Source: an uncultured Lachnospiraceae bacterium
Lineage (GTDB): Bacteria > Bacillota_A > Clostridia > Lachnospirales > Lachnospiraceae
Length of the DNA: 64,000 bases
Direction: 5' to 3'
NCBI GenBank assembly: GCA_951801245.1
Contig: CATOMC010000006.1
Coordinates: forward strand, 44,439-108,438
The position numbers and the translations under genes were made by a program. Positions within the stretch are counted from its first letter, which is position 1. Each line of letters opens with the position of its first letter. This document shows positions 10,230 through 44,881 of this stretch, one piece after another. The notes under the pieces are model-generated. The model had not been told where the DNA came from. It ran no database searches and saw nothing but the letters and a program-made list of their open reading frames with translations.

Positions 10230-11228
10230 ATGGCGAAGTCACCGAATCAGAAGTTAAAATTACTGTACCTATTAAAGATATTGACGGAACAGTCTGATGA
10301 GAACAACTGCCTGAGCGCACAGGCGCTGATCGATGCGCTGGCGTCCTATGATATCAAGGCGGAGCGTAAGAGTATCTATGACGATATCGCACAGTTAAAT
10401 GATTTCGGCTATGATATTGTCCTTGTGAAGTCCAAGACTGGCGGCGGGTATTATCTGGCTGACCGGGAGTTTGAACTGGCGGAGCTAAAGTTGCTTGTAG
10501 AGACGGTACAGGCATCCAGATTCCTGACCCTAAAAAAATCCAGAGAACTGATCGGTAAAATAGAGAAATTAGCCTCGAAAGCGCAGGCAGGGCAGTTACA
10601 GCGCCAGGTCTATGTGGCCAACCGCGTTAAGACGGCCAATGAGAGTATTTATTATATTGTAGATGATATTCACAGAGCCATTCAGAACAATGAGCAGATC
10701 TCCTTCCAGTATCTGGAATGGAATCTGCAAAAGGAGCTGGTGCCAAGACGGGACGGAAGACAATACCGGGTCAGCCCCTGGGCACTTACCTGCAAGGATG
10801 AGAATTATTATCTGATCGCCCACGACGGGGAGGAAGATAAGATCAAGCATTTCCGTGTGGACAAGATGGGCAAGATAGAAATCCTATCCGGCATCAGACG
10901 GGAAGGCGCGGCGCTTTTTGAGCGCTTCGATATCGCAGACTATGCCAATAAGACTTTTGGTATGTATGGCGGTCAGGAGGAGACGGTTACGCTATTATTT
11001 GAGAACCGGTTTATCGGAGTGGTGATAGACCGTTTCGGCAAAGATGTGCCGGTGAGGCCGCGGGACGAGGGGCATTTTACCGTGCGGGTCAAGGTGGCGG
11101 TCAGCGGTCAGTTTTTCGGCTGGCTTACCGGGCTTGGCACAGGAGCAGGCATTGTGTCTCCTAAGGAGGTAACGCAAGCCTATCAGGATCATCTGCGGGA
11201 GGTTCTTTTGCAATATCAGATATCATAA
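10230..11228 (+). CDS. WYL-domain transcriptional regulator
   Basis: The 332 residues have an N-terminal winged HTH (about 5-75, LKLLYLLKILTEQSDENN through YDIVLVKSKTGGGYYL) and a WYL domain (about 140-230, with QISFQYLEW, RVSPWALTCKDENYYLIAHD and HFRVDKM), followed by a WCX-type C-terminal extension. Such proteins are ligand-responsive regulators; some bind nucleic-acid-like ligands. I place the start at ATG 10230 because GGAGG lies at 10221-10225 and the product begins MAKSPNQKLKLLYLL. It precedes an aminotransferase gene by 29 bases and could regulate it, which is inference. Confidence 0.87.
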   Translation: MAKSPNQKLKLLYLLKILTEQSDENNCLSAQALIDALASYDIKAERKSIYDDIAQLNDFGYDIVLVKSKTGGGYYLADREFELAELKLLVETVQASRFLTLKKSRELIGKIEKLASKAQAGQLQRQVYVANRVKTANESIYYIVDDIHRAIQNNEQISFQYLEWNLQKELVPRRDGRQYRVSPWALTCKDENYYLIAHDGEEDKIKHFRVDKMGKIEILSGIRREGAALFERFDIADYANKTFGMYGGQEETVTLLFENRFIGVVIDRFGKDVPVRPRDEGHFTVRVKVAVSGQFFGWLTGLGTGAGIVSPKEVTQAYQDHLREVLLQYQIS

Positions 11229-32966: not shown

Positions 32967-33087
32967 TATTCGTATCGTATTTACCTGTATGGCAGCTATG
33001 ACAGATTCCGTGGCGCCGGCTTTTGCCTGAATGATGTGTGCTATGCAGTCAGCGGTGACCAGACGGAGGGTATCATAGTCAGTCATT
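32967..33087 (+). pseudogene. Possible short coding remnant
   Basis: Directly after the permease stop an open frame without a start reads IYLYGSYDRFRGAGFCLND and ends at a TAG at about 33090. It looks protein-like but matches no family I recognise. It may be the 3' end of a deleted gene; evidence is weak. Confidence 0.25.
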
Positions 33088-33112
33088 TATAGGAAATATA
33101 CAAAGAGTAAAA

Positions 33113-33157
33113 GAGTAATCCCATGACACATCTCGTATCATGGGATCACCCTTTTTA
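33113..33157. terminator. Bidirectional terminator between the exporter and cotJC
   Basis: GTAATCCCATGA (33115-33126) pairs with TCATGGGATCAC (33138-33149) with one mismatch, followed by CCTTTTT on the plus strand and CTCTTTT on the minus strand. It would end both the exporter operon and the (reassembled) cotJ operon. Confidence 0.8.
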
Positions 33158-33178
33158 TTTCATGTCAAAAGCCGAAAT

Positions 33179-33610
33179 TTATTTCACATTTCCTTCACAG
33201 CAGTCAAATCCCGGGTTGAATGCGTAGAAGTTCTTTTCGTTCAGGCGATCTTGTACGATGCGCAGTGCTTCACCGAATCTCTGGAAATGCACGACTTCAC
33301 GCATACGAAGGAATTTGATGGGTTCACAGACATCAGGATCATGCACCAGACGCAGAATGTTGTCGTACGTTGTACGGGCTTTTTGCTCTGCCGCCATATC
33401 CTCCATCAGATCCGTAATGATATCGCCTTTGGACTGGAACTCGCAGGCATTAAAGGGAACACCGCCTGCCGCCTGCGGCCAGATACCGATTGTGTGATCC
33501 ACATAATAGTTGCGGAATCCACTGGCCTCTATTTCTTCCATGGACAGATTTTTCGTCAACTGGTGCACGATGGTAGCAACCATTTCCAGGTGTGCCAGTT
33601 CTTCTGTACC
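33179..33610 (-). pseudogene. cotJC: cotJC, 3' part (separated from its 5' part by the 9.35-kb element)
   Basis: These 143 codons begin GTEELAHLEMVATIVHQ and encode the rest of CotJC, a spore coat protein of the manganese catalase family. Conserved parts are the metal-ligand helix EELAHLEM, GIWPQAAGGVPFN, DLMEDMAAEQKA and MREVVHFQRFGEAL. The reading frame is free of stops and frameshifts. It has no start or ribosome binding site of its own; upstream it runs into element DNA. Joined at the GTACC core to the 5' part (42952-43143), it gives a 204-residue protein of normal family length. Intactness of both parts points to recent insertion or to selection for rejoining. Confidence 0.92.
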
Positions 33611-33633
33611 CACCTTGTGCTCAGAAATGTTCC
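33606..33633. other. Left attachment site (attL) of the cotJC element
   Basis: The core GTACC (33606-33610) is shared with the right junction (42956-42960). On the element side, after nine bases, lies CTCAGAAATGTTCC (33620-33633), the inverted partner of the right-end repeat with 13 of 14 matching bases. On the chromosome side the sequence is cotJC codons. Confidence 0.88.
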
Positions 33634-33859
33634 AAATCATGCCTTATGTGGACAAGTCAAGTGCCCTTGGCTTATCTAAATGGAGTTAAACAAGCTCTTT
33701 TTCTATGGGAAACCACACCATTGTCTACTTCAATCGTGTGCGCTTTACTATGCTGACTTTTGAAGTATGCAAAAGTATTGCGTTTTCAAAAAAGGACTAA
33801 CCCCTCTGTTATATCGTACAAACCCTTATGAATACATTATGGCGAGGTGGTGTTGATGA

Positions 33860-34060
33860 TTGAAATGTCGTGAGTTTATTTATGTCGGAGAGCCTGCTCC
33901 GCAAATTACCGAACAGGCATACACAGCGTTTTATCTGCATCTTCAAAGGTCAATACTTGCTTCTTTGGAAAAGAGGGAGCTTTTGACCCATTCGCAATAT
34001 AGCTGCTGTATCGAGGAAATAGAAAAACAATACCGTCAGAAAAACCGCAGCCAGGCCTAA
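33860..34060 (+). CDS. Small protein next to the recombinase
   Basis: The 66 residues (start TTG, directly after an in-frame stop, with GAGGTGG nine bases upstream) read KCREFIYVGEPAPQITEQAY and end in a helical, basic tail (EEIEKQYRQKNRSQA). I do not recognise the family. Its position 117 bases upstream of the recombinase and inside the element suggests an accessory role such as directionality factor or regulator, but nothing in the sequence proves it. The region 33641-33859 in front of it shows no other gene. Confidence 0.5.
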   Translation: MKCREFIYVGEPAPQITEQAYTAFYLHLQRSILASLEKRELLTHSQYSCCIEEIEKQYRQKNRSQA

Positions 34061-34084
34061 CCGCTCGGCTCTTTACATATAGAG

Positions 34085-34109
34085 ATGTGCAATTTAATTA
34101 TTTGCACAT
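34085..34109. promoter_or_regulatory. Palindrome upstream of the recombinase gene
   Basis: ATGTGCAA (34085-34092) and TTGCACAT (34102-34109) form a perfect 8-bp inverted repeat with a nine-base centre, about 70 bases ahead of the recombinase ATG. CATACAAG just after it resembles a sigma-E -10 element in seven of eight positions, but no good -35 is present. It may be an operator for recombinase expression. Confidence 0.4.
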
Positions 34110-34177
34110 TCGACATACAAGCAAACAGTCATTATACCTAAACTACGGCAAGTCATTGTCGGGAAAGGAAAGGTTTT

Positions 34178-35794
34178 ATGCCAACATTACGATATGAACT
34201 CTTAAACCAAGAGAGAAAAATGCAGGAAACGAAAAAAAGAGTTGCAGCCTATTGCCGTGTTTCCACGGATAATGAAGACCAAGCCAATTCTTTTGAAAGT
34301 CAACAGCGGTATTTCCGCCAGTATATTGAGCGTAATCCCGATTGGGAGCTTTATGCCATATTTGCCGATGGGGGCATCTCTGGCACAAACACGAAAAAAC
34401 GAAAAGAATTTAACCGCATGATTGGGTGTGCTAAAAACGGCGATTTTGATTTGATTATTACAAAGGAGATTTCCCGTTTTGCGAGAAATACCCTTGATAG
34501 TATATTCTATACCCGTGACCTCAAAGAGCACGGTGTCGGCGTTATCTTTCTAAACGACAACATCAACACCTTAGACAGCGATGCAGAGCTTCGCCTTGCC
34601 ATTATGTCCTCTATCGCACAGGAGGAAAGCCGTAAGACTTCCGAGCGTGTGAAATGGGGACAGAAACGTCAGATGGAGCAAGGCGTTGTGTTCGGACGCA
34701 GTATGCTTGGTTACGATGTAAAGGACGGAAAAATGACTATCAACGAGGAGGGAGCAAAAATCGTCCGCCTTATCTTCCACAAGTTTGTGTACGAGGGAAA
34801 AGGTACTCATGTTATTGCCCGTGAGCTTCGGGAGGAAGGCATTGAGCCTATGCGTGTGAAGGAATGGCAAAACACCGTCATTCTCCGCGTTATCCGCAAC
34901 GAAAAATACTGCGGCGATTTGGTACAGAAGAAAACCTATACGCCAGACTTCCTATCCCATGAGAAGAAATACAACCGAGGACAGGAGGAATTTGTCATTC
35001 TCAAAGACCACCATGCGCCGATTATCTCTCGTGAGCTTTTCGATAAGGCAAACCGCATTTTGGATACAAAATCGCTTTCGCAGGAGGGCAAGGCAAAACA
35101 CAGCAGCCGCTATCCGTTTTCGGGGAAAATCAAATGCGGCAGATGCGGAGCAAGTTATGTCGCCCGATATAAGACCCGCAAAGACGGGAGCAGATACAAG
35201 GCGTGGCGTTGCTATGAAGCGGCAAACCACGGTAGCCAGCATATCGACAAGGCGGGCAGACAAGTGGGCTGCTCTGGTGAGAGTATCCGCAATGAAGATG
35301 CGATTTATTTGTTGTATCTTGTTTGCAGGGAGCTGAAAATCAACCGCCAGCAAGTTGTCGATAATCTCACCAAGACGATTGAATTATGTTTGCGGACAGA
35401 TCTAACAGGAACAAGTACGAGTGCCTTATCGGAGAAAATCGAAGAAGCTAATAAAAAGCGTACAAGTCTTATAGACCTTTACACAAGCGGCGACATAGAC
35501 AAAATCGAATTTACTGCTCTAAGAGCCAAGTATGACGAGGATATTGAAAGGCTAAAGTCTAGGGCAGATGGAATTGAGCAACAGCAAACAATGGGACTCA
35601 AACATCAGGAATTGATGGAAGATATAAAGAACGCCATTGACGAGTTGATTAACGGTATTCAGTACGAGGACGAATACTATACCCAGATACTTGATAAGAT
35701 GGTAATCAATGATAAAAACCACATAGATGTTTATCTGAAAATGCTGCCGCATAAGTGGAGTTTTATGGTAGCAAAGGCGTTACGGGGGCTTTAG
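34178..35794 (+). CDS. Large serine recombinase (element integrase)
   Basis: This is the site-specific recombinase expected to integrate and excise the element. The 538 residues have a resolvase catalytic domain (about 20-165) with nucleophile Ser 29 in YCRVSTDNED and the arginine-bearing motifs SRFARN and EESRKTSERVKWGQ, a recombinase domain (about 185-300), a zinc ribbon with CGRC (about 319-322) and two later Cys, and a long C-terminal coiled coil (about 420-490). That is the full layout of a large serine integrase. It lies at the left end of the element, reading inward from attL. It ends at a 12-bp hairpin (35812-35841). Skin elements and Tn4451-like elements use this enzyme class. Confidence 0.95.
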   Translation: MPTLRYELLNQERKMQETKKRVAAYCRVSTDNEDQANSFESQQRYFRQYIERNPDWELYAIFADGGISGTNTKKRKEFNRMIGCAKNGDFDLIITKEISRFARNTLDSIFYTRDLKEHGVGVIFLNDNINTLDSDAELRLAIMSSIAQEESRKTSERVKWGQKRQMEQGVVFGRSMLGYDVKDGKMTINEEGAKIVRLIFHKFVYEGKGTHVIARELREEGIEPMRVKEWQNTVILRVIRNEKYCGDLVQKKTYTPDFLSHEKKYNRGQEEFVILKDHHAPIISRELFDKANRILDTKSLSQEGKAKHSSRYPFSGKIKCGRCGASYVARYKTRKDGSRYKAWRCYEAANHGSQHIDKAGRQVGCSGESIRNEDAIYLLYLVCRELKINRQQVVDNLTKTIELCLRTDLTGTSTSALSEKIEEANKKRTSLIDLYTSGDIDKIEFTALRAKYDEDIERLKSRADGIEQQQTMGLKHQELMEDIKNAIDELINGIQYEDEYYTQILDKMVINDKNHIDVYLKMLPHKWSFMVAKALRGL

Positions 35795-35811
35795 AAACGC
35801 TACAAAAGCTA

Positions 35812-35841
35812 AAGCCTCAGAAAATTCCATTTCTGAGGCTT
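35812..35841. terminator. Hairpin after the recombinase gene
   Basis: AAGCCTCAGAAA (35812-35823) and TTTCTGAGGCTT (35830-35841) form a perfect 12-bp stem around a six-base loop. It lies between the convergent recombinase and AraC genes and may serve both. Confidence 0.7.
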
Positions 35842-35842
35842 A

Positions 35843-35914
35843 ACTACCTACAGAAGCATATCGGGCTGCATACTCAGCACCGCACCGGCCGCACTTGAGT
35901 TTTCCTGTAAATCC
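35843..35914 (-). pseudogene. Remnant of a second serine recombinase (zinc-ribbon segment)
   Basis: In a frame different from the AraC gene, the minus strand reads GFTGKLKCGRCGAEYAARY, which aligns with FSGKIKCGRCGASYVARY of the nearby intact recombinase. At DNA level it is diverged, so it is not a recent copy. The AraC gene reads through this remnant in another frame to make its last residues. Confidence 0.7.
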
Positions 35915-36786
35915 GTGCTGCCATTGGCAACGGAAGCGTTGTCTGAGTTCCGGATCTGATTTCGGTATGCCATGGGACTCATACCCTGTATACGGCGGAA
36001 GCTCTGTGAAAAATAGCTGGGTGAGGAAAACCCCAGCATTTCTGCAATTTGAGACAGCGACAGGCTTGTTTCTGCCAAAAGGTGCATGCTCTCCTGAACT
36101 CTGCATAATAACAGATAATTGATGGGAGAGGTACCGTATTCCCGGCTGAAGGCGTGTGACAGATAATATTTACTTACATGGGCAACGGCAGCCAGGTTGT
36201 CTAATGTCAGGTTTTCCTTAAAGTTATTTTCAATATAGCGGCGTACAACAGCGCATTCCTTGCTGGACTTATGGGCGGCGGGGATGAAAGTAACGGTAAA
36301 TTTACTGCTCCGCATTAATAGAAGCAGAACCACCTCCAGAAGATCCTGGCAGACGGTGTTGTAGCCGGGAAGTTTGGTTTCAATCTCCTTTAACAGGCAG
36401 CGAAGGTAGAACAGTATCTGTTCGCCGTCAGTCTGAAAATGGATGATAGAGTATCCATCCCCCCCATCGTCCCCGGCAATGACTTCCAGTCCGTCCACGC
36501 CCATGACGATGTATTCCAGCGGATCGTCTTCTGAGCTTCTTTCTGTATGCTCAGTACTGGAATTCACGATCAGTACATCGTTGACGCCAATAGGTACAGA
36601 TGTGCCTGCAAGCAGCAGGTAGCCGGAACCGCCCGTAACATAGAATACCTCGGCACAGGGGTGAGTATGAAAGATGGAGCGCCATTCGGGGCTGTAGCGG
36701 GTGACGCTCACATAACGCAGTTTCGTGACAGATCGGTCTACAGGATTGACGGCCAAAGGGTCGATCACATAATGGCTGGTACTCAT
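35848..36786 (-). CDS. AraC-family transcriptional regulator of the GNB/LNB operon
   Basis: The 312 residues have an N-terminal cupin sensor domain (about 25-110, with SIFHTHPCAEVFYVTGGSGYLLL in parts: FHTHPCAEVFYV and GGSGYLLLAG) and a C-terminal double HTH (about 185-285, with LTLDNLAAVAHVSKYYLSHAF and LSLSQIAEMLGFSSPSYFSQSF given as overlapping pieces YYLSHAF and GFSSPSYFSQSF). It is divergent from the transporter-GH112 operon. It probably activates that operon via the direct repeats at 36988-37021. The tail after YRNQIR (about 282-312) is not part of the family and is encoded by recombinase-derived DNA read out of frame. Confidence 0.88.
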   Translation of the reverse strand: MSTSHYVIDPLAVNPVDRSVTKLRYVSVTRYSPEWRSIFHTHPCAEVFYVTGGSGYLLLAGTSVPIGVNDVLIVNSSTEHTERSSEDDPLEYIVMGVDGLEVIAGDDGGDGYSIIHFQTDGEQILFYLRCLLKEIETKLPGYNTVCQDLLEVVLLLLMRSSKFTVTFIPAAHKSSKECAVVRRYIENNFKENLTLDNLAAVAHVSKYYLSHAFSREYGTSPINYLLLCRVQESMHLLAETSLSLSQIAEMLGFSSPSYFSQSFRRIQGMSPMAYRNQIRNSDNASVANGSTDLQENSSAAGAVLSMQPDMLL

Positions 36787-36820
36787 AGATCAGGAAATCC
36801 TCCCTTCAAAAATTAAGTTA

Positions 36821-36849
36821 ATTATAAAAGGTTTTGGTATGAAAAACAA
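36821..36849 (-). promoter_or_regulatory. Sigma-A promoter of the AraC gene
   Basis: On the minus strand TTGTTT (36844-36849), a 17-base spacer and TATAAT (36821-36826) lie 35 bases upstream of the AraC start codon. Confidence 0.7.
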
Positions 36850-36987
36850 GAAATGTGCTACATAAATATGGTGGGAATATTTAGATTGAGAAGTAAAATG
36901 CTGAAATAAGACAAAAACAGAAGGGTATTATTTGTCAATATGCATATATATTTGGGGAAATTTAGAATGAAATTGATAAAAAAGTCC

Positions 36988-37057
36988 AAAAAGAGCAAGA
37001 TATATAAAAAAAAGAGCAAGAAAGGGGGATGGAAAGAAGAAGAGAAATTGTTATACT
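36988..37057 (+). promoter_or_regulatory. AraC-type direct repeats and activator-dependent promoter of the GNB/LNB operon
   Basis: AAAAAGAGCAAGA occurs twice (36988-37000 and 37009-37021), 21 bases apart, two helical turns, as AraC-family dimers require. The second copy ends eight bases before the place of a -35 hexamer (37029-37034, ATGGAA, poor), and TATACT follows at 37052-37057. A good -10 with no -35 next to two activator half-sites is the layout of an AraC-activated promoter. The 339-base gap 36787-37125 is otherwise AT-rich leader. Confidence 0.65.
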
Positions 37058-37125
37058 AAAAACAGTTACGAGTAGAAGCAGTGATACTCCGTTAACTACA
37101 TATTAATCAGGAGGTAGAAAGAGTT

Positions 37126-38538
37126 ATGAAAAAGGTATTAAGCATGCTTTTAGTGGGTGCCTTGACGGCGACCACACTGGCTGGCTGTGGCGGCAATGAA
37201 CAGGCACCTGCAGCAGAGGCTCCTTCCGCAGCAGAAGAAAAGGAAGAAGTGAAGGCCGAAGCACCGGAAGAAACGCCGGAAGAAGCACCAGAGGAGGCAC
37301 CTGCAGAGGGAGCGACCATCACCGTTGCAGCGATTGAGACTGCTTATGGCAGTCAGATGTGGCAGGATGTCTGTGCCGCATTTACAGAGCAGACAGGTAT
37401 CAACGTAGAGTTGATCACCGACAAGAATCTGGAGGATGTGATCGGACCGTCCATGCAGGCGGGAGATTTCCCCGATGTGATTCATCTTGCGACAGGACGT
37501 GAGAAGGCTCTGACAGAGACCTTCATTAAGGATCAGAATATTGTTGATATCACAGATGTTCTGTCCATGACAGTACCTGGCGAGTCCGCTAAGGTAGGAG
37601 ATAAGATTGCAGGTGGTTTCACAGAGACCAGTCTGACCAACCCTTATGGCGACGGTAAGACTTATCTGGCACCGATGTTCTATTCTCCTTGCGGTCTGTT
37701 TTACAATGCCGGCCTGTTCGAGGAGAAAGGCTGGGAAGTTCCGACTACTTGGGATGAGATGTGGGTGCTTGGCGATGAGGCTGCAGCAGAGGGAATCGCT
37801 CTGTTTACTTATCCTACAACGGGTTACTTTGATGCATTCTTCTATGCTCTTATGTATTCCGTAGGCGGCGCTGATTTCTTTGATCAGGCTACCAACTATG
37901 CAGAAGGTGTTTGGGATACTGAGGAAGCAAAGACTTGTTTTGAAATCGTAACGAAGCTGGCAAGCTATACAGAAAAGACCACTCCGGCACAGGCAAACGA
38001 TCAGGACTTCACAAAGAATCAGCAGTTGGTTCTGGACAATAAAGCGTTATTCATGCCCAATGGTACTTGGATCGTAGGCGAGATGGCGGAAGCTCCCAGA
38101 GCTGACGGGTTCCAGTGGGGAATGACGGCTCTTCCGGCTGTAACGGCTGGCGGCGACGGCTATAGCTATACCTGGTTTGAGCAGGCATGGATTCCCGGCG
38201 GTGCACAGCATCAGGACGAGGCAAAACAGTTTGTTGCATTCTTGTACAGCGACACTGCATGTGAAATCTTTGCAGGCGCAGGCGCTATTCAGCCGGTACT
38301 GAACATTGCTGAGAAACTGGAAGGCGATAACCAGATGTTCTATTCCATCTATGACAAAGGCGCTAAGGCGGCTATGGGTAATTTCGCAGCTTATGACAGC
38401 GCTACGGTAGGCGTAAGCAACCGTGAAGTATGGTTTGATCCGGTAAACTCTCTGGTATCCGGCAATATGACAGAGCAGGAGTGGGTTGATGGCATTAAGG
38501 CAGCGAATGACCAGATGCGTGCTAATCTGATCCAGTAA
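37126..38538 (+). CDS. Sugar ABC transporter solute-binding lipoprotein (GNB/LNB operon)
   Basis: The 470 residues begin with a lipoprotein signal (lipobox LAGC, Cys 21), an acidic Pro/Glu/Ala linker (about 27-60) and a family 1 extracellular solute-binding domain (ITVAAIETAYGSQMWQDV through the C-terminus, with FPDVIHLATG and FYSPCGLFYNAGLFEEKGW in parts: YSPCGLFYNA and LFEEKGW). It should bind an oligosaccharide outside the cell and deliver it to the permeases downstream. The GH112 enzyme in the operon makes galacto-N-biose or lacto-N-biose the likely ligand. A terminator-like hairpin (38575-38610) follows, which would give more binding protein than permease. Confidence 0.9.
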   Translation: MKKVLSMLLVGALTATTLAGCGGNEQAPAAEAPSAAEEKEEVKAEAPEETPEEAPEEAPAEGATITVAAIETAYGSQMWQDVCAAFTEQTGINVELITDKNLEDVIGPSMQAGDFPDVIHLATGREKALTETFIKDQNIVDITDVLSMTVPGESAKVGDKIAGGFTETSLTNPYGDGKTYLAPMFYSPCGLFYNAGLFEEKGWEVPTTWDEMWVLGDEAAAEGIALFTYPTTGYFDAFFYALMYSVGGADFFDQATNYAEGVWDTEEAKTCFEIVTKLASYTEKTTPAQANDQDFTKNQQLVLDNKALFMPNGTWIVGEMAEAPRADGFQWGMTALPAVTAGGDGYSYTWFEQAWIPGGAQHQDEAKQFVAFLYSDTACEIFAGAGAIQPVLNIAEKLEGDNQMFYSIYDKGAKAAMGNFAAYDSATVGVSNREVWFDPVNSLVSGNMTEQEWVDGIKAANDQMRANLIQ

Positions 38539-38574
38539 TCTGAAATGGTAACAAGGTTGTAAAAGTGAATAAAG

Positions 38575-38610
38575 AAACGGCGGTGGCGGGCTGCTTACCG
38601 CCGTTTTTTT
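38575..38610 (+). terminator. Intra-operon terminator after the solute-binding protein gene
   Basis: AACGGCGGT (38576-38584) and ACCGCCGTT (38597-38605) form a 9-bp GC-rich stem followed by a run of seven T residues (38604-38610). Partial termination after the binding-protein gene is common in such operons. Confidence 0.85.
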
Positions 38611-38682
38611 AGAAGCATGAAATGCTCTGAGGGAGGAAAGAGTGTCCGAAGACATGGAATGCCAGGAAAGGAGTTCTGACGT

Positions 38683-39570
38683 ATGAAGAAACGTTCCGGC
38701 CGCAATGGATTTATCTTTCTTTGTGTGGCGCCCGCAGTAATATTGTTTACTGTTTTTATGATTATTCCAACGATAAATGTTTTCAGAATGTCTTTGTTCC
38801 AGCGTAGTGCTTATTCTACTACGGAAGACTTTGTCGGAATGGAAAACTTTACCCGTTTGATGAAAGATACAAACTTTATCCGCTCTATGCAGAATACTAT
38901 TCTTCTGATTGTGGTAGTGACCATTGTAACTTTTGCTTTTGCTCTGGTGTTTGCCGCTATCTTGACGCGTGAGAAGATCAAGGGACAGAATTTCCTGCGG
39001 ATCATATTTTATATTCCCAATATTTTGTCAGTGGTGGTAATTTCAGCAATCTTTAGTGCTATTTATGATACGAACAATGGTACTTTAAACAGCCTTCTGT
39101 CTCTGTTTAGCGGTAAGACCGTGCAGGTTTTGTGGAAGGGAGAGAACATGGTAATGGTCAGTCTGATCATTGCTATGGTATGGCAGGCGATCGGTTATTA
39201 TATGGTTATGTACATGGCTTCCATGGCCAGTGTGCCGCAGAGCTTGTACGAGAGTGCAGGACTGGATGGCGCCGGCCGGGTTACGCAGTTCTTCCAGATT
39301 ACATTACCGCTGATCTGGACCAACATCCGTACAACGCTGACATTCTTTATTATCAGTACGATTAATATGGCGTTTCTGTTTGTAAAAGCTATGACCTCCG
39401 GCGGGCCTAACGGGGCATCCGAAGTTGCGCTGTCCTATATGTATAAGCAGGCTTATACCAATTCTTCTTATGGCTATGGAATGGCTATCGGTGCACTGGT
39501 GTTCGTTTTTTCTTTTGGATTATCGGCGTTGGTCAATGTGGTTACCAAACGGGAACCGTTGGAATTTTAA
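38683..39570 (+). CDS. Sugar ABC transporter permease (MalF/LacF type)
   Basis: The 295 residues have six predicted helices (first at about 11-33, LCVAPAVILFTVFMIIPTINV in parts: LCVAPAVILF and FMIIPTINV) and the EAA loop near 200-220 (YESAGLDGAGRVTQFFQITLP given as YESAGLDGAG and FFQITLP), which contacts the ATPase. It pairs with the next permease for oligosaccharide import. No ATPase gene is in the operon, so a shared MsmK-type ATPase encoded elsewhere must energise it, as is usual for Firmicute sugar importers. Confidence 0.92.
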   Translation: MKKRSGRNGFIFLCVAPAVILFTVFMIIPTINVFRMSLFQRSAYSTTEDFVGMENFTRLMKDTNFIRSMQNTILLIVVVTIVTFAFALVFAAILTREKIKGQNFLRIIFYIPNILSVVVISAIFSAIYDTNNGTLNSLLSLFSGKTVQVLWKGENMVMVSLIIAMVWQAIGYYMVMYMASMASVPQSLYESAGLDGAGRVTQFFQITLPLIWTNIRTTLTFFIISTINMAFLFVKAMTSGGPNGASEVALSYMYKQAYTNSSYGYGMAIGALVFVFSFGLSALVNVVTKREPLEF

Positions 39571-39582
39571 GGAGGGCAGTCT

Positions 39583-40470
39583 ATGGAACGGACAAAAAAG
39601 ACGTCGGCCGATCGGCTGTATATGGCGTTTATCTATGTGGCTTTGATTACTTTGGCTGTGACCATTATTATACCAGTGGCCTGGGTGTTTATGGCGTCTG
39701 TGAAAGAAAACAGCGAGTTTTATGGGAACCCGTGGGCTTTGCCGGCCGGGTTGTATGTTCAGAACTTTGCCGATGCCTGGGGAAAGGCCAGAATGGGCGA
39801 ATATATGCTGAATTCTGTACTGGTAACAGCGTTGGCGCTGGTTATTCTTCTGGTGGTGGCTTTACCTGCAGCTTATGCACTGTCCCGCTTTGAATTCCGG
39901 GGACGTAAGTTTTTGAATGCGGCATTTATGGGCGGTTTGTTTATTAATGTTAACTATATTGTAGTTCCCATTTTCCTGATGTTAGTAGATGGAGACAAGT
40001 TCTTGCGCGGTCTCATAGGGGATGGATTCCTGCTCAATAATATCTTTGTGCTGGCAGTGGTCTATGCGTCTACGGCGCTTCCGTTTACCGTTTATCTTTT
40101 GTCAGGGTATTTTGCTACGTTGGCGCATGATTATGAGGAAGCGGCATATATTGACGGGGCCGGTTACGGCAGGACCATGTTGAAGATTATTTTCCCTATG
40201 GCACAGCCTTCTATTATCACTGTGATCTTATTTAACTTCCTGTCCTTCTGGAATGAGTATATTATAGCGATGACGTTGTTATCAGATCCAAAGGGTGGAA
40301 AGACATTGCCCGTAGGATTGATGCAGTTGACGCAGGCACAGCAGTCAGCAGCTCAGTATGGTCAGCTTTATGCAGGTCTGGTTCTGGTAATGCTGCCAAC
40401 ACTGATTCTCTACATTTGTGTACAGAAGAAGTTGACACAGGGTATGACACTGGGTGGTCTGAAAGGGTAA
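39583..40470 (+). CDS. Sugar ABC transporter permease (MalG/LacG type)
   Basis: The 295 residues have six predicted helices and the EAA motif YEEAAYIDGAGYGRTMLKI (about 186-204). It begins 12 bases after the previous permease, with GGAGGG before the ATG, and forms the second half of the transmembrane channel. Together with the binding protein at 37126 it probably brings in galacto-N-biose/lacto-N-biose from mucin or milk glycans. Confidence 0.92.
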   Translation: MERTKKTSADRLYMAFIYVALITLAVTIIIPVAWVFMASVKENSEFYGNPWALPAGLYVQNFADAWGKARMGEYMLNSVLVTALALVILLVVALPAAYALSRFEFRGRKFLNAAFMGGLFINVNYIVVPIFLMLVDGDKFLRGLIGDGFLLNNIFVLAVVYASTALPFTVYLLSGYFATLAHDYEEAAYIDGAGYGRTMLKIIFPMAQPSIITVILFNFLSFWNEYIIAMTLLSDPKGGKTLPVGLMQLTQAQQSAAQYGQLYAGLVLVMLPTLILYICVQKKLTQGMTLGGLKG

Positions 40471-40479
40471 GGTGAGAAT

Positions 40480-40683
40480 ATGAAATTCTGGAAAGAGCAT
40501 GTGGGTTTACGGGTATGGTTTATTGCAATGTTTTTTGTAGTTGGCATGTGCTTGGTCGTTGGAGGTTGGAAAATGACGGGTGATCTGATGGGACTGTTCC
40601 TGATGATTGTAGGCCTGGTTTTCCTTTTGGCAGCTATCATGATTTATAATAAGCCATATGAGGATCCCAAAAGCCGGCGATAG
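40480..40683 (+). CDS. DUF6903-type small membrane protein
   Basis: The 67 residues have two membrane helices (about 11-30 and 35-58: FIAMFFVVGMCLVVGGW and GLFLMIVGLVFLLAAIM) and a short hydrophilic tail. Small proteins like this are found just upstream of GH112 genes in Lachnospiraceae. It lies ten bases after the permease gene. A role in the transporter complex is possible; nothing specific can be said. Confidence 0.75.
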   Translation: MKFWKEHVGLRVWFIAMFFVVGMCLVVGGWKMTGDLMGLFLMIVGLVFLLAAIMIYNKPYEDPKSRR

Positions 40684-40752
40684 GCTATGCATCATATGTT
40701 CGGCGGCAAAGGAATCTATAGAGTATGAAATAAAATTACCGAGGTATTGTAG

Positions 40753-42924
40753 ATGAGCGAGAAGATTGAGAAGAGCGGACGGGTTACGATCCCCACAGAT
40801 GTGGACGTGGTACCGGAGACTTTGGAATTGTTAAAACGGTGGGGAGCGGATGCTATCCGTGATTGTGATGGGACAGATTATCCGGAGGCACTAAAAGGGG
40901 TGAATGCCAAGGTGTATTCCACCTATTATACGACCAGGAAGGATAATGCCTGGGCTAAGTCTAATCCGGATGAGGTGCAGCAATGCTATATTATGACAGG
41001 GTTTTATACGGCAAAAGAGGAACCTTTGCGGATTCCGCTCATGGCAGGTATCAGCCGTGAATTGTTGGCCGTAAACACCAGGAATGACAGGAAGCGCTGG
41101 TGGGAAGTGATGGACAGGACACTGGGGACGCCTGTGGACCCGGAAGAATGGTTCTATGAAGAGGAGAGCGGTTGTGTTGTTCTGCCAGATCCCAAGGCCT
41201 GGCACGAATATACGGTGAGTTTTTTGGCTTATCTGATCTGGGATCCGGTGCATATGTACAATGCAGTGATCAATGACTGGAGTGATTTTGAACACCAGAT
41301 CACTTTTGATGTGCGCCAGCCAAAGACAAGAGAGCATACCATGCAAAGGCTGCGGCGTTTTGTGGAAGAGCATCCTTATGTGGACGTAATCCGCTATACA
41401 ACTTTCTTCCATCAGTTTACACTGATATTTGACGAATTAAGGCGGGAGAAGTACGTGGACTGGTATGGTTATTCCGCATCGGTTTCCCCGTATATTCTGG
41501 AACAGTTCGAGAAGGAAGTCGGATATCGTTTCCGTCCGGAGTTTATTATAGACCAGGGTTACTATAACAATCAATATCGGGAGCCAAGCCGGGAGTATAA
41601 GGATTTCATGGCTTTTCAACGCCGGGAAGTAGCTGCTCTGGTAAAAGAGATCGTGGATCTGACGCATGAGTTGGGCAAAGAAGCCATGATGTTTTTGGGT
41701 GATCACTGGATCGGTACGGAACCTTTTATGGAGGAATTTGCTACAACGGGCATTGATGCCGTGGTAGGTTCTGTGGGCAACGGCTCCACGCTGCGGCTTA
41801 TTGCGGATATCCCGGGAGTGCCTTATACAGAGGGACGCTTTTTGCCGTATTTCTTCCCGGATACGTTCAAGCCGGGCGGGGATCCTGTGAAGGAGGCCAA
41901 AGAGAACTGGGTAACGGCCCGCCGGGCAATTCTGCGTAAGCCCATCGATCGGATCGGTTACGGGGGCTATTTAAAGTTGGCCTATCAGTTCCCTGATTTT
42001 ATCGAATATGTGGAGAGTGTGTGTAAGGAATTCCGGGAACTTTATGATAATATCAAAGGGACGGAAGCCTTTTGCCAGAAACGTGTGGCCGTGCTCAACT
42101 GTTGGGGACGTATGCGTTCCTGGGGATGTCATATGGTGCATCATGCCCTCTATCAGAAGCAGAATTATAGTTATGCCGGCGTGATCGAAGCGTTGTCAGG
42201 GGCACCGTTTGATGTGAAGTTTCTATCTTTTGACGACATTCGGGAGAATCCCCGGGTGTTAGAAAAGATCGATGTGCTGATCAACGTGGGAGACGCAGAC
42301 ACGGCACACACGGGCGGCGCAGTCTGGGAGGATGCCGTGGTATCTTCTGCCATCAGAGAGTTCCTTTATAAGGGCGGCGGTATGATCGGTGTGGGAGAGC
42401 CTTCCGGGCATCCCTATCAGGGACGGTTCTTGCAGCTTGCATCAGCCTTAGGGGTAGAGAAAGAGACAGGATTTACGCTGGGCTATGACAAATATAACTG
42501 GGAGGAGCATCCGGATCATTTCATTCTGGAGGATTGTAAGGATCCTGTGGATTTTGGAGAGGGAAAGAAGAGCATCTATGCACTGGAAGGAACGCAGATT
42601 CTTGTACAGCGGGACAAAGAGGTGCAGATGGCTGTGAATACTTATGGAAATGGCCGTTGCGTATATATTTCCGGTCTTCCCTACAGCTTTGTCAACAGCC
42701 GGATTCTCTATAGGGCTGTAATGTGGAGCAGCCACAGTGAAGAGCAGCTTTGCCAATGGTTTTCCAGCAATTATAATGTGGATGTTCACGCCTATGTCAA
42801 GAACGGAAAGTTCTGTGTCGTGAATAATACTTACGTACCCCAGTCTACGGTAGTGTATAAGGGGGACGGGGAAAGTTTTCCTCTGGATCTTGGAGCCAAT
42901 GAAATAAAGTGGTATGAGATTTAA
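40753..42924 (+). CDS. lnpA: 1,3-beta-galactosyl-N-acetylhexosamine phosphorylase (GH112)
   Basis: It cleaves galacto-N-biose (mucin core 1 disaccharide) or lacto-N-biose (human milk oligosaccharide unit) with phosphate, giving galactose-1-phosphate and GalNAc or GlcNAc in the cytoplasm. The 723 residues match GH112 in length and sequence: GRVTIPTDVDVVPETLELL given as GRVTIPTDVD and VPETLELLKRWGADAIRDCDG in part WGADAIRDCDG, YYTTRKDNAWA, WYGYSASVSPYILEQFE, FIIDQGYYNNQYR (catalytic acid region) and MMFLGDHWIGTEP. It is the last gene of the cargo operon. The stop is 11 bases before the right-end repeat of the element, and no terminator is seen, so transcripts would run across attR, antisense to cotJC. 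Confidence 0.94.
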   Translation: MSEKIEKSGRVTIPTDVDVVPETLELLKRWGADAIRDCDGTDYPEALKGVNAKVYSTYYTTRKDNAWAKSNPDEVQQCYIMTGFYTAKEEPLRIPLMAGISRELLAVNTRNDRKRWWEVMDRTLGTPVDPEEWFYEEESGCVVLPDPKAWHEYTVSFLAYLIWDPVHMYNAVINDWSDFEHQITFDVRQPKTREHTMQRLRRFVEEHPYVDVIRYTTFFHQFTLIFDELRREKYVDWYGYSASVSPYILEQFEKEVGYRFRPEFIIDQGYYNNQYREPSREYKDFMAFQRREVAALVKEIVDLTHELGKEAMMFLGDHWIGTEPFMEEFATTGIDAVVGSVGNGSTLRLIADIPGVPYTEGRFLPYFFPDTFKPGGDPVKEAKENWVTARRAILRKPIDRIGYGGYLKLAYQFPDFIEYVESVCKEFRELYDNIKGTEAFCQKRVAVLNCWGRMRSWGCHMVHHALYQKQNYSYAGVIEALSGAPFDVKFLSFDDIRENPRVLEKIDVLINVGDADTAHTGGAVWEDAVVSSAIREFLYKGGGMIGVGEPSGHPYQGRFLQLASALGVEKETGFTLGYDKYNWEEHPDHFILEDCKDPVDFGEGKKSIYALEGTQILVQRDKEVQMAVNTYGNGRCVYISGLPYSFVNSRILYRAVMWSSHSEEQLCQWFSSNYNVDVHAYVKNGKFCVVNNTYVPQSTVVYKGDGESFPLDLGANEIKWYEI

Positions 42925-42935
42925 CAGCAGTATCC

Positions 42936-42960
42936 GGAACATTTCAGAGGCTTCGGTACC
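42936..42960. other. Right attachment site (attR) of the cotJC element
   Basis: GGAACATTTCAGAG (42936-42949) is the element-side repeat, followed by six bases and the core GTACC (42956-42960), after which cotJC codons continue. Joined to the left end (33611-33633) it forms an attP-like site with 14-bp inverted arms separated by 20 bases centred on the core. Confidence 0.88.
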
Positions 42961-43143
42961 TATATCGGTCAATATGCCGGCTACTTCTCGGTAGGGGGCA
43001 GCATATCGCTGCGACAGGTAGCGCATGGAAGCACCCATTTCACCGTCAGGGCCGCCATATTGACTGATAATAACCTGTGCGATATCAGCATTTGATTCTT
43101 TGATATTTACCGGAAACTCTAATCTTTTCTCATAATTCCACAT
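42952..43143 (-). pseudogene. cotJC: cotJC, 5' part (interrupted by the element)
   Basis: The first 64 codons of cotJC are present: MWNYEKRLEFPVNIKESNAD at the start, then IAQVIISQYGGPDGEMGASM and YREVAGILTDIGTE. GGAGG lies nine bases before the ATG, and the start overlaps the cotJB stop (TAATG). After GTE the frame enters element DNA and runs open, antisense to the GH112 gene, to a stop at 42448; the extra residues (ASEMFRILLLNLIPLYF) do not belong to CotJC. The natural continuation EELAHLEMV is found at the other end of the element. Confidence 0.93.
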
Positions 43144-43421
43144 TAATGACATCCTCCTTCCCAGGGCATGGGGCTTAAAGCCCATTGCCAGTCCTTACAA
43201 TCCGATACATCCGCGCAGGAGATTGTAAGCGGTGTATATTTGGTGGAGTATTCCTGTCTGGCCTGGTTTGCCATACGGTTATAATGTCTGAAATATTCTA
43301 AAGCATTTCTGTCAGTGGGATGGGTATCCAGATAAAGAGACAATTCAGTGACAACAAAAGATAAGACGCCAATATCATGAAGCAGTTTCTCCTGCTCACT
43401 GGCAAATTGCATATTCATCAT
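43143..43421 (-). CDS. cotJB: Spore coat protein CotJB
   Basis: The 92 residues belong to the CotJB family, a small spore coat protein expressed in the mother cell with CotJA and CotJC. Visible features are the helical N-terminus (FASEQEKLLHDIGVLSFVV), LDTHPTDRNALEYFRHY and a C-terminal tryptophan-rich WQWALSPMPWEGGCH. The start overlaps the cotJA stop by four bases (ATGA). MMNMQF offers three possible Met starts close together. The C-terminal Cys/His end is normal for the family. Confidence 0.92.
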   Translation of the reverse strand: MMNMQFASEQEKLLHDIGVLSFVVTELSLYLDTHPTDRNALEYFRHYNRMANQARQEYSTKYTPLTISCADVSDCKDWQWALSPMPWEGGCH

Positions 43422-43588
43422 TTACAGCATCTCCTTCCTGTGAATGGTTTATTAAGTTCCGGGAAGATGGTGCCGTCCTGATAGCCTTCTTCCAGATTCT
43501 CACAGATTCCTTTGAAGTGCTGCCAGGGAACATAGGCCATAGCGACAGGGAAATCGTCGATATTTTCTTTGTACATATAGTCTTTCAT
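43418..43588 (-). CDS. cotJA: Spore coat associated protein CotJA
   Basis: The 56 residues run MKDYMYKENIDDFPVAMAYV, then PWQHFKGICENLEEGYQDGT and IFPELNKPFTGRRCCK. The segments VAMAYVPWQ, the acidic middle and IFPELNKPF are typical of CotJA. The gene is short and easily missed. It is the first gene of cotJABC and is followed by cotJB with a four-base overlap. GGAAAGG lies upstream of the ATG. The AT-rich upstream region (43589-43720) should hold the mother-cell promoter, but I cannot assign it. Confidence 0.92.
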   Translation of the reverse strand: MKDYMYKENIDDFPVAMAYVPWQHFKGICENLEEGYQDGTIFPELNKPFTGRRCCK

Positions 43589-43798
43589 AATTTCCTTTCC
43601 TGATTTGCAAGTTCTTTTTCATTATAATATGATATAATAATTCCTGCGTGTTTGCTGATTTGCACAAGAACACAAAAAATTCACAATTTGGTACGAATAG
43701 AGACACATTTTTCCAGTACATTTATAAGAGTGTTTTTCCCATTATGGATAATGGTCTGAAAGATGTTAAGGATTTGAACGAAAAAGGAGGAGTTTAGT

Positions 43799-44881
43799 TT
43801 GATACAAGTAGAGAATTTGGTCAGGCGATATGGGGATCATGTGGCGGTAGATGCGTTATCCTTCAACGTGGAGCCAGGGAAGATATATGGTTTTGTCGGG
43901 CCAAACGGGGCCGGCAAGTCCACGACCATGAATGTGATGACAGGATATATAGCTGCCAGCAGCGGCACGGTGGTGATTGACGGGCATGATATTTTAAAGG
44001 AGCCGCTTGCGGCGAAAGCATGCATCGGTTATCTGCCGGAGGTGCCGCCGCTGTATATGGGCATGACGGTACAAGAGTATCTTATGTTTGTGGCACAATT
44101 AAAGCGTGTGCCGAAAAAGGAAAGAATAGAGCACGTGGAAGCAGTGAAGGACAAAACGGGTCTCCATGATATGGGGGAGCGTCTGATACGCAATCTGTCC
44201 AAAGGATATAAGCAGCGGGTAGGTTTCGCCCAGGCCTTGATCCATGATCCCAAAGTGTTGATCTTAGATGAGCCCATGACGGGTCTTGATCCGAAGCAGA
44301 TCATAGAGATGCGGGATTTGATCAGGAATCTTTCCGGAAGTCATACGGTCATCCTAAGCTCCCATATTCTTTCGGAAATCAGTGCGGTTTGTGACCATAT
44401 CATGATTATTTCCAAAGGGAAACTGGCAGCCAGCGGGTCGCCGCAGGAGTTGGAAGAGATGATGCAGGCGAAGGCGGAAGTGGAAGTTGTGGTGGCGGCC
44501 TCACAGGAGCAGGTGCAGGATGCGCTTGCCGGATTAGAACAGGTTGAGGATCTTAGGGCAGAAGCCGGAAAAGAGGCAGGAACTGTCGCGGTCTATATTA
44601 CAGCGAAGGATAATGCCGATATCAGAAAAGAACTGTCTGTTGCGCTTGCATCTGCCGGCCTGCCCATTTTGTCCATGAACCGGACGGAGAGATCCCTCGA
44701 AGATATTTTCCTGGAATTGACACAGGAAGTATCTGAGGAGGAAAACGACCAGGAGCCGGCAGGAGAAGCAGAGCCGGAAGATAAGCAACAGGCCGGACAA
44801 GAGGCTGCCTGTGACGGCAGGAAAGATTGTACGGATAAGAACGAAACAAAGGAGGTGACAGAACATGACGGCGATCTATAA
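43799..44881 (+). CDS. ABC transporter ATP-binding protein (GldA-like)
   Basis: The start is a TTG with GGAGGAG upstream. The 360 residues have Walker A GPNGAGKST (34-42), the Q-loop YLPEVPPLY, signature LSKGYKQRVGFAQ, Walker B VLILDEPMTGLDP and the H-loop LSSHILSE, followed by a regulatory domain and an acidic, low-complexity tail (about 315-360). It overlaps the next gene by 17 bases. Its partner is an ABC-2 permease fused to a GldG-like domain, so the pair resembles the GldAFG transporter. In Bacteroidetes that system supports gliding; in Firmicutes its role is unknown. Confidence 0.88.
   Translation: MIQVENLVRRYGDHVAVDALSFNVEPGKIYGFVGPNGAGKSTTMNVMTGYIAASSGTVVIDGHDILKEPLAAKACIGYLPEVPPLYMGMTVQEYLMFVAQLKRVPKKERIEHVEAVKDKTGLHDMGERLIRNLSKGYKQRVGFAQALIHDPKVLILDEPMTGLDPKQIIEMRDLIRNLSGSHTVILSSHILSEISAVCDHIMIISKGKLAASGSPQELEEMMQAKAEVEVVVAASQEQVQDALAGLEQVEDLRAEAGKEAGTVAVYITAKDNADIRKELSVALASAGLPILSMNRTERSLEDIFLELTQEVSEEENDQEPAGEAEPEDKQQAGQEAACDGRKDCTDKNETKEVTEHDGDL

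Follow-up and report, generated by a model that had tools for sequence, protein, structure and literature searches.

In Clostridioides difficile the sigK gene is interrupted by the skinCd element, in which, according to the part of PMC5025042 drawn on here, the recombinase CD1231 is expressed constitutively (sigma-A) and the directionality factor is the 72-amino-acid CD1234, controlled by sigma-E and SpoIIID. A comparable insert is described here in the coat gene cotJC of an uncultured Lachnospiraceae bacterium, which probably lives in the gut. The DNA analyzed (hereafter ‘the window’) is a stretch of 64,000 nucleotides from contig CATOMC010000006.1 of assembly GCA_951801245.1. The insert is interpreted as a serine-recombinase element that is predicted to leave the mother-cell chromosome at sporulation and thereby rebuild cotJC (rough probability 0.7).

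Compared with the part of PMC5025042 used, the locus resembles skinCd in combining a large serine recombinase with a sigma-A-like promoter and a small gene with a sigma-E-like promoter, and in interrupting a mother-cell gene at a short core from which the gene is precisely restored (here in silico). The target differs (cotJC here, sigK there), as does the computed isoelectric point of the small protein (7.7, vs. 5.5 for CD1234). Unlike skinCd as described in that part, the insert shows no phage genes, appears to be a composite with a metabolic cargo unit, and is predicted from its sequence to excise. The gin element in gerE of Bacillus cereus, as presented in the relevant part of PMC5595907, is likewise of non-phage type, carries serine recombinase, and interrupts a sporulation gene whose restoration takes place within a short shared core; gin spans 28.6 kb with three recombinases, whereas the helper unit here spans 2.2 kb with one, and the cargo differs. 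Intervening elements in sporulation genes also include yin in yabG of Clostridium botulinum (PMC10747680) and vfbin, vrin and SP-beta in spsM (PMC4191935); in the parts of these sources used, those elements are prophage-like and sit in different genes, and the string ‘cotJ’ is absent from the main text of both papers. The sporulation rearrangements named in the cited papers are few and isolated cases. In the open-licence PMC literature (bioRxiv lay outside the search), no description of an element in cotJC was found, which is not proof of absence.

The staphylococcal cassette chromosome (SCC) elements occur as tandem composite units, some without their own recombinase, and leave their target gene rlmH functional. 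The present locus shares with them a serine recombinase at a fixed chromosomal site and tandem composite units of which some lack a recombinase, and differs in that a sporulation gene is split. Plain SCC membership was rejected (recombinase 135.6 bits vs. a CcrB cut-off of 900; target cotJC, not rlmH).

Interruption and exact in-silico restoration of cotJC

The interrupted operon lies on the minus strand and begins with cotJA (43418–43588; PF11007, E 1.4e-14), followed by cotJB (43143–43421; PF12652, E 1.1e-27). Downstream of both, the first 64 codons of cotJC, ending DIGTE, occupy 42952–43143, and the 5′ piece up to the core (codons 1–62) occupies 42957–43143. The 3′ piece, from codon 62 (33179–33610, minus strand; Mn-catalase family PF05067, E 3.3e-27), follows 9.35 kb away in the same strand and order. 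The split claimed in the original prediction is thus confirmed by coordinates and domain matches, and so is its claim of GTACC at both junctions with exact restoration: in-silico removal of 33606–42955 yields one open cotJC frame of 204 codons encoding a protein of 204 amino acids. The identical joined protein (...TDIGTEELAHL...) is obtained from every joint from 33601/42950 through 33611/42960. The bases common to both joints are GTACC, read as GGTAC in Gly62-Thr63, and are present as core 1 (33606–33610; boundary of the cotJC 3′ piece and the helper unit) and core 3 (42956–42960; boundary of the cargo unit and the cotJC 5′ piece). The joined window reads TTCTTCTGTACC at the joint. The split and its restoration are far beyond chance. 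As in sporulation gene-intervening elements of the skin type, a recombinase-bearing element splits the open reading frame (ORF) of a sporulation gene into pieces of the same strand and order, with a short identical core at both junctions, and the joint rebuilds the ORF without loss.

Expression of the two pieces as separate polypeptides would require no DNA excision, and the 3′ ORF (33179–33640) opens with its own in-frame ATG inside the element. Against this account, which is considered very improbable, the cut interrupts GTEELAHLE, a conserved motif of a Mn-catalase-type protein; other genomes have the gene broken into at least three pieces; and the 3′ piece would presumably lack the operon promoter.

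A natural empty site was found among 60 genomes of the genus of G077, 53 of which have a CotJC match. The sister genome G455 carries an uninterrupted CotJC whose protein is 99% identical to the joined window protein (gene DNA 86%). Its DNA aligns to window positions 33109–33610 and 42951–44683; these two alignments overlap by 10 bases where the core lies, and G455 reads TTCTTCTGTACC at the joint, as does the joined window. Collinearity with the window largely extends to 52640 on one side and for about 500 bases on the other. Judged from this alignment, the G455 site is a natural attB. The original prediction had named a relative with uninterrupted cotJC and no GTACC-joined sequence as a result that would speak against it; the closest relative carries that sequence. 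The more distant intact cotJC genes, in G373 and G040, specify the identical D-I-G-T-E-E-L but, owing to synonymous changes, lack GTACC. The insert can be identified with near certainty, on this comparison, as a serine-recombinase element occupying an exact attB in codons 62–63 of cotJC. An assembly artefact, for which no supporting evidence was found, has a negligible probability given that the same kind of split occurs in many independent assemblies and that the flanks are collinear in G455.

Recombinase, attachment sites and relatives at the same site

The recombinase (34178–35794, plus strand; 538 amino acids) has the Resolvase, Recombinase and zinc-ribbon domains of a large serine recombinase (PF00239, PF07508, PF13408). 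It matches the integrase family phrog_95 in PHROGs (E 3.6e-128), and its best sequence match among solved structures is 3g13, a putative conjugative transposon recombinase. The left attachment arm CACCTTGTGCTCAGAAATGTTCC (33611–33633) is in part an inverted repeat of the right arm GGAACATTTCAGAGGCTTCG (42936–42955), which belongs to the cargo unit. Joining of the element ends gives a dyad attP in which the arms GGAACATTTC and GAAATGTTCC flank the core.

One scan of genome contigs gave 164 recombinase relatives, of which the best 80 were kept as loci. Pieces of cotJC were present in 74 of these, mostly from Lachnospiraceae-type gut bacteria, and absent from six (L001, L037, L052, L054, L064, L066). 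The right-arm motif occurred 75 times in the 81 sequences (80 loci plus the window); it adjoins cotJC codons in 66 occurrences by a strict rule and in L055 by eye, and does not adjoin them in the remaining eight, including the internal core of the window (L054 is a weak match). Both cotJC pieces were available in 18 sequences, window included, with L088 and L012 being one genome in duplicate; L090–L093 and L096 lie outside the recombinase family of the window, except L093 (61%) and L091 (50%). Joining at that codon in silico gave an open frame of 199–230 amino acids in 17 of the 18, the single miss being L045, where only part of the 3′ piece is present. In 12 of the 18, the coding-strand prefix shared at the joint comprised at least GGTA or, failing that, 10 identical bases.

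The element can also sit in the opposite orientation, as seen in L053, L118 and L121, where the cotJC 3′ piece comes after the recombinase and shares its strand. The smallest insert at this site (L092, G353, 655–2857; ~1.6 kb) has a recombinase-like ORF running into the 3′ junction and also encodes a stand-alone Spo0A C-terminal-domain protein (PF08769, E 4.7e-31).

Recombinase relatives in phage and plasmid collections were at best 48.0% and 48.5% identical, with none at ≥60%. Viral contigs held 12 recombinase loci, four of them with cotJC matches (L117, L118, L119, L121), and no terminal repeat was seen in the available stretches. In L117 and L119, IMG/VR contigs listed as viral, a middle cotJC piece lies between two convergent recombinases; such elements can therefore be called viral. 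No RNA family exceeded its gathering score in window 33000–43800.

Probable composite build of the insert

The window contains two right arms. One of them, CCATTTCTGAGGCTTAA (35827–35843), belongs to an inverted repeat downstream of the recombinase stop codon and adjoins, instead of cotJC, the likely left arm of another unit. Between them lies core 2 (TACC, 35845–35848), and the likely left arm of the cargo unit follows together with a short recombinase zinc-ribbon remnant (FTGKLKCGRCGAEYAARY; 35849–35905, minus strand). On the minus strand the internal junction reads ...GATATGCTTCTGTA followed by GGTAGTTAAGCCTC, compared with GATGCTTCTGTA followed by GGTA in L076 and L093. The match of the internal left arm is TGCTTCTGTAGGTA, and further out it is shifted by 2 bases, for which reason the likeness is rated good but not strong; in L036 such a junction occurs with its left arm complete. 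The original prediction had treated the insert as a single 9.35-kb element. Its size stands, and it is probably more than one unit, since a third core with an arm lies inside. The insert looks like a tandem of a 2.2-kb helper unit (33607–35844; 66-amino-acid gene and recombinase) and a 7.1-kb cargo unit (35845–42956; AraC regulator, ABC transporter and GH112 enzyme), the latter with no recombinase beyond the short zinc-ribbon remnant. The remnant (35840–35905) is in a different frame and overlaps the end of araC at the internal attachment site.

This build admits a partial exit, in which the recombinase removes the helper unit only (core 1 × core 2), the cargo stays and cotJC is permanently split. 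Core 2, the internal core, is indeed flanked by an arm on each side; its CTACC is the form found in most relatives, in contrast to the GTACC of cores 1 and 3. The longest identity (GTACC) is nevertheless between cores 1 and 3, and the full joint restores the gene exactly, which makes partial exit improbable.

Small gene, candidate promoters and proposed mechanism

Between core 1 and the recombinase lies a conserved gene of 66 amino acids (33860–34060, plus strand; TTG start), predicted to encode a recombination directionality factor. It is found upstream of the recombinase in 73 of the 80 loci; of the other seven, L005, L017, L019 and L080 begin too near a contig end, and L065, L069 and L079 lack the gene. 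It evolves as coding sequence (differences per codon position 0.27/0.15/0.39; stops in 0/74). The protein had 58 relatives in a protein search, and its model consists of two helices (mean pLDDT 88.9, pTM 0.61). No Pfam family was matched above its cut-off, and no match was obtained in PHROGs, the search of which was limited to the recombinase and this protein.

The B. subtilis sigma-E consensus is KMATATT and CATACAHT. By this consensus, a sigma-E-like promoter lies upstream of the small gene (33809–33838, plus strand), with −35 TTATATC, a 15-nucleotide spacer containing a conserved GTACAA, and −10 AATACATT; it falls in a block conserved in many loci, TTATATgGTACAAnC-n7-CATACATT. The conserved GTACAA/GGACAA in the spacer weakly resembles what we take to be a SpoIIID box. 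Best hits were scored out of 15 against the B. subtilis consensus in dereplicated loci, and expectations were obtained from shuffled sequences. Scores of ≥12 were found before the small gene in 23 of 42 loci (2.2 expected) and before the recombinase in 7 of 47 (3.6 expected), and the spacer was 15 in 34 of 36 small-gene motifs scoring ≥11. A sigma-A-like promoter of the recombinase (TCGACA-N17-TATACC; 34110–34138, plus strand) lies in a conserved block picked out by eye. Spore sigma-E was above its family cut-off in 23 of 24 relatives. The parallel with skin elements drawn in the original prediction proves well founded: it agrees with the large serine recombinase, the attB of the sister genome, the dyad attP, the frames left open in relatives and the sigma-E-like promoter upstream of the conserved small gene.

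From these features we infer programmed excision. The recombinase would be made constitutively from the sigma-A-like promoter, and the gene for the 66-amino-acid factor would be read by sigma-E RNA polymerase, exclusively in the mother cell. The two proteins together would recombine core 1 with core 3, releasing both units as one circle and leaving GGTAC in the open cotJC frame. The forespore would retain the element, so that the next generation inherits the split gene and the cargo. The most economical account, and probably the right one, is that the mobile element is tolerated because of its exit from cotJC in the mother cell.

In G014 (C63:54121–56712) and G019 (C191:13398–19095) a second sporulation sigma gene is likewise split, its two pieces being separated by about 1.9 and 5.1 kb. 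This gene, with a weaker match to the sigma-E model, is perhaps sigK, and the splits are possibly skin-type elements.

Frame conservation, horizontal spread and opposing evidence

Alternatively, the insert may be an ordinary mobile element for which cotJC is an integration site: the gene is inactivated, excision serves transfer only, and the host lives without the coat protein. Against this, none of the 72 cotJC 5′ halves (window and one duplicate included) was decayed, stops being absent from the first 62 codons of all of them. Of 27 3′ halves, 26 were open; the only closed one, L081, is a displaced copy downstream of an uninterrupted gene. Positions invariant among 22 intact genes were violated at 1.47% in 71 split genes, close to the 1.08% obtained by leave-one-out in the intact genes themselves. 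Genome searches flagged a number of pieces for stops; among the 20 that were fetched, none had a stop inside the piece; three had one at residue 29 and a fourth at residue 64, in each case at the junction, and the remaining stops lay outside the aligned piece. The conserved sigma-E-like promoter also argues against simple inactivation, and the convergence of several unrelated recombinase lineages on one gene would be odd if each were a knock-out. Selection on the gene in its split state can be tested, weakly, in just two close pairs: L060/L061 and L021/L079 show 13% third-position differences in the 5′ half with zero amino-acid change. In L021/L079 the distance from the recombinase to the 5′ piece differs, which makes a common insertion uncertain.

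Several observations weigh against programmed excision. Among 16 locus pairs with recombinase third positions ≥95% identical, 14 had cotJC third positions only 36–57% identical (the other two are one duplicate and L060/L061), a clear sign that the elements spread horizontally between species. Many insertions may therefore be young, and an intact frame is not necessarily a sign of selection on the split gene; nor can recombinase vs. cotJC divergence date the split. The spread is also what an ordinary mobile element would give, and cargo of relatives such as AbiEii-family genes and Cas9 would suit one. A full-length paralogue, 63–68% identical, is present in 5 of 22 genomes (G009 has one of 33%), so cotJC may be dispensable, and the genome of the window may itself hold a second copy. 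Two displaced 3′ copies behind intact genes were tested, of which L081 was decayed and L114 open; since L114 is open although displaced, such copies are no clean control. At the joint, 6 of the 18 two-piece loci share only GG (L028, L071, L074, L077, L092) or nothing (L096). For the small gene, absence was recorded in 3 of 76 loci with enough upstream sequence, a CTG first codon in 15 of 74, and no start codon in 4 of 74. The promoter scan barely detected cotJA promoters, making them a weak positive control (11/61 vs. 6.0 expected); its consensus is that of B. subtilis, and relatedness among the loci means that the motif count is not made up of independent cases. The excised circle was not found, the exact attP pattern giving 0 matches in viral contigs. 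With these points taken together, excision at sporulation remains preferred, and an ordinary mobile element is considered unlikely.

An intact cotJC followed downstream by a displaced 3′ copy was observed in L081 (G373), on C4 of G406, G187 and G195, and on C68 of G077. The copies begin at about residue 56–60 (at 159 in G195), and G077 has two, 3.5 kb apart. They are possibly left by elements that bring a replacement 3′ end.

Splits at four sites across the family

CotJC was searched for in 396 family members of G002, with a match in 246. Full match rows were obtained for 160 of these, and the other 86 had a single match each in the first listing. Splits were picked by hand and counted where the pieces lay on one contig and strand with >500 bases between them; contig breaks as the mere cause of multi-piece genes were thereby rejected, same-contig cases alone being counted. 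A split cotJC on one contig was present in 62 of the 246 genomes: at site 64 in 28, site 32 in 22, site 178 in 10 and site 137 in 9, with two split sites on one contig in seven genomes. The sites lie in conserved Mn-catalase-type motifs (GGPDGE, GTEELAHLE, AAEQKAR and HFQRFGEA), which presumably hold metal ligands. Recombinases beside site 32 are 29–31% identical to that of the window, those at 137 26–28%, and those at 178 about 25%. Site 64 itself has the family of the window (≥61%), another at 50–52%, and L094 and L096 at about 20%. Full-length recombinase ORFs stand at 32, 64 and 137 in L003, with a further 3′ piece on another contig of its genome.

A broader picture would join these results. 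In it, cotJC of Lachnospiraceae-type gut bacteria is serially interrupted by several recombinase lineages at about residues 32, 64, 137 and 178, several mother-cell excisions are needed per coat protein, and the gene is a family-wide docking site for cargo (the GH112 operon, Cas9, AbiEii-family genes, transporters) under an excision circuit based on a small factor that is driven by sigma-E and not represented in the family libraries searched; we give this picture even odds. If true, a coat gene would be an insertion hub across a bacterial family, with elements still moving between species, and dozens of natural replicates would exist for how a mobile element comes under developmental control. 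The minimal helper unit (66-amino-acid gene and recombinase, 2.2 kb) would suit tests of directionality control. The splits may also explain broken-looking cotJC in some genomes of gut spore formers, and they suggest that metabolic and defence cargo can ride where it is discarded only in the terminal mother cell.

Cargo genes

The cargo unit encodes an AraC-family regulator (35848–36786, minus strand; PF12833), the C-terminal end of which differs from its G001 homologue near the breakpoint. The plus-strand genes that follow are a carbohydrate ABC transporter binding protein (37126–38538; TIGR03850, above cut-off), two ABC permeases (38683–39570 and 39583–40470; both PF00528), a small DUF6903 protein (40480–40683; PF21844) and a 1,3-beta-galactosyl-N-acetylhexosamine phosphorylase of family GH112 (40753–42924; TIGR02336, 956 bits, above cut-off). 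By their family names, these genes are predicted to support growth on galacto-N-biose or lacto-N-biose. No phage structural or replication family was found among the seven element proteins in Pfam and NCBIfam, and a prophage-like intervening element was rejected on this ground.

The same operon, 85% identical over window 35931–42932, occurs in G001 without these arms; there it is preceded by four other unclassified ORFs, and the contig ends about 600 bases past it. The GH112 type of the window (94%) was found only in G001 among the 60 genus members, of which 33 have only 35–56% identical copies and 26 have none, and GH112 gave no match in viral contigs. The cargo unit would be a captured operon. 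Behind the unarmed GH112 operon of G001 (L150, ~10994–11025), a hairpin contains GAGGCTTTTGCACCGATATCGG, which matches the cotJC joint in 15 of 20 bases, the best in that locus; this is perhaps a pseudo-attachment site that allowed capture, or chance. The cargo of other site-64 elements includes a 1325-amino-acid Cas9, AbiEii-family genes, and MATE and double-ABC genes (L058 5053–9030; L012 2584–3486; L026 2746–3684; L028 5500–9309).

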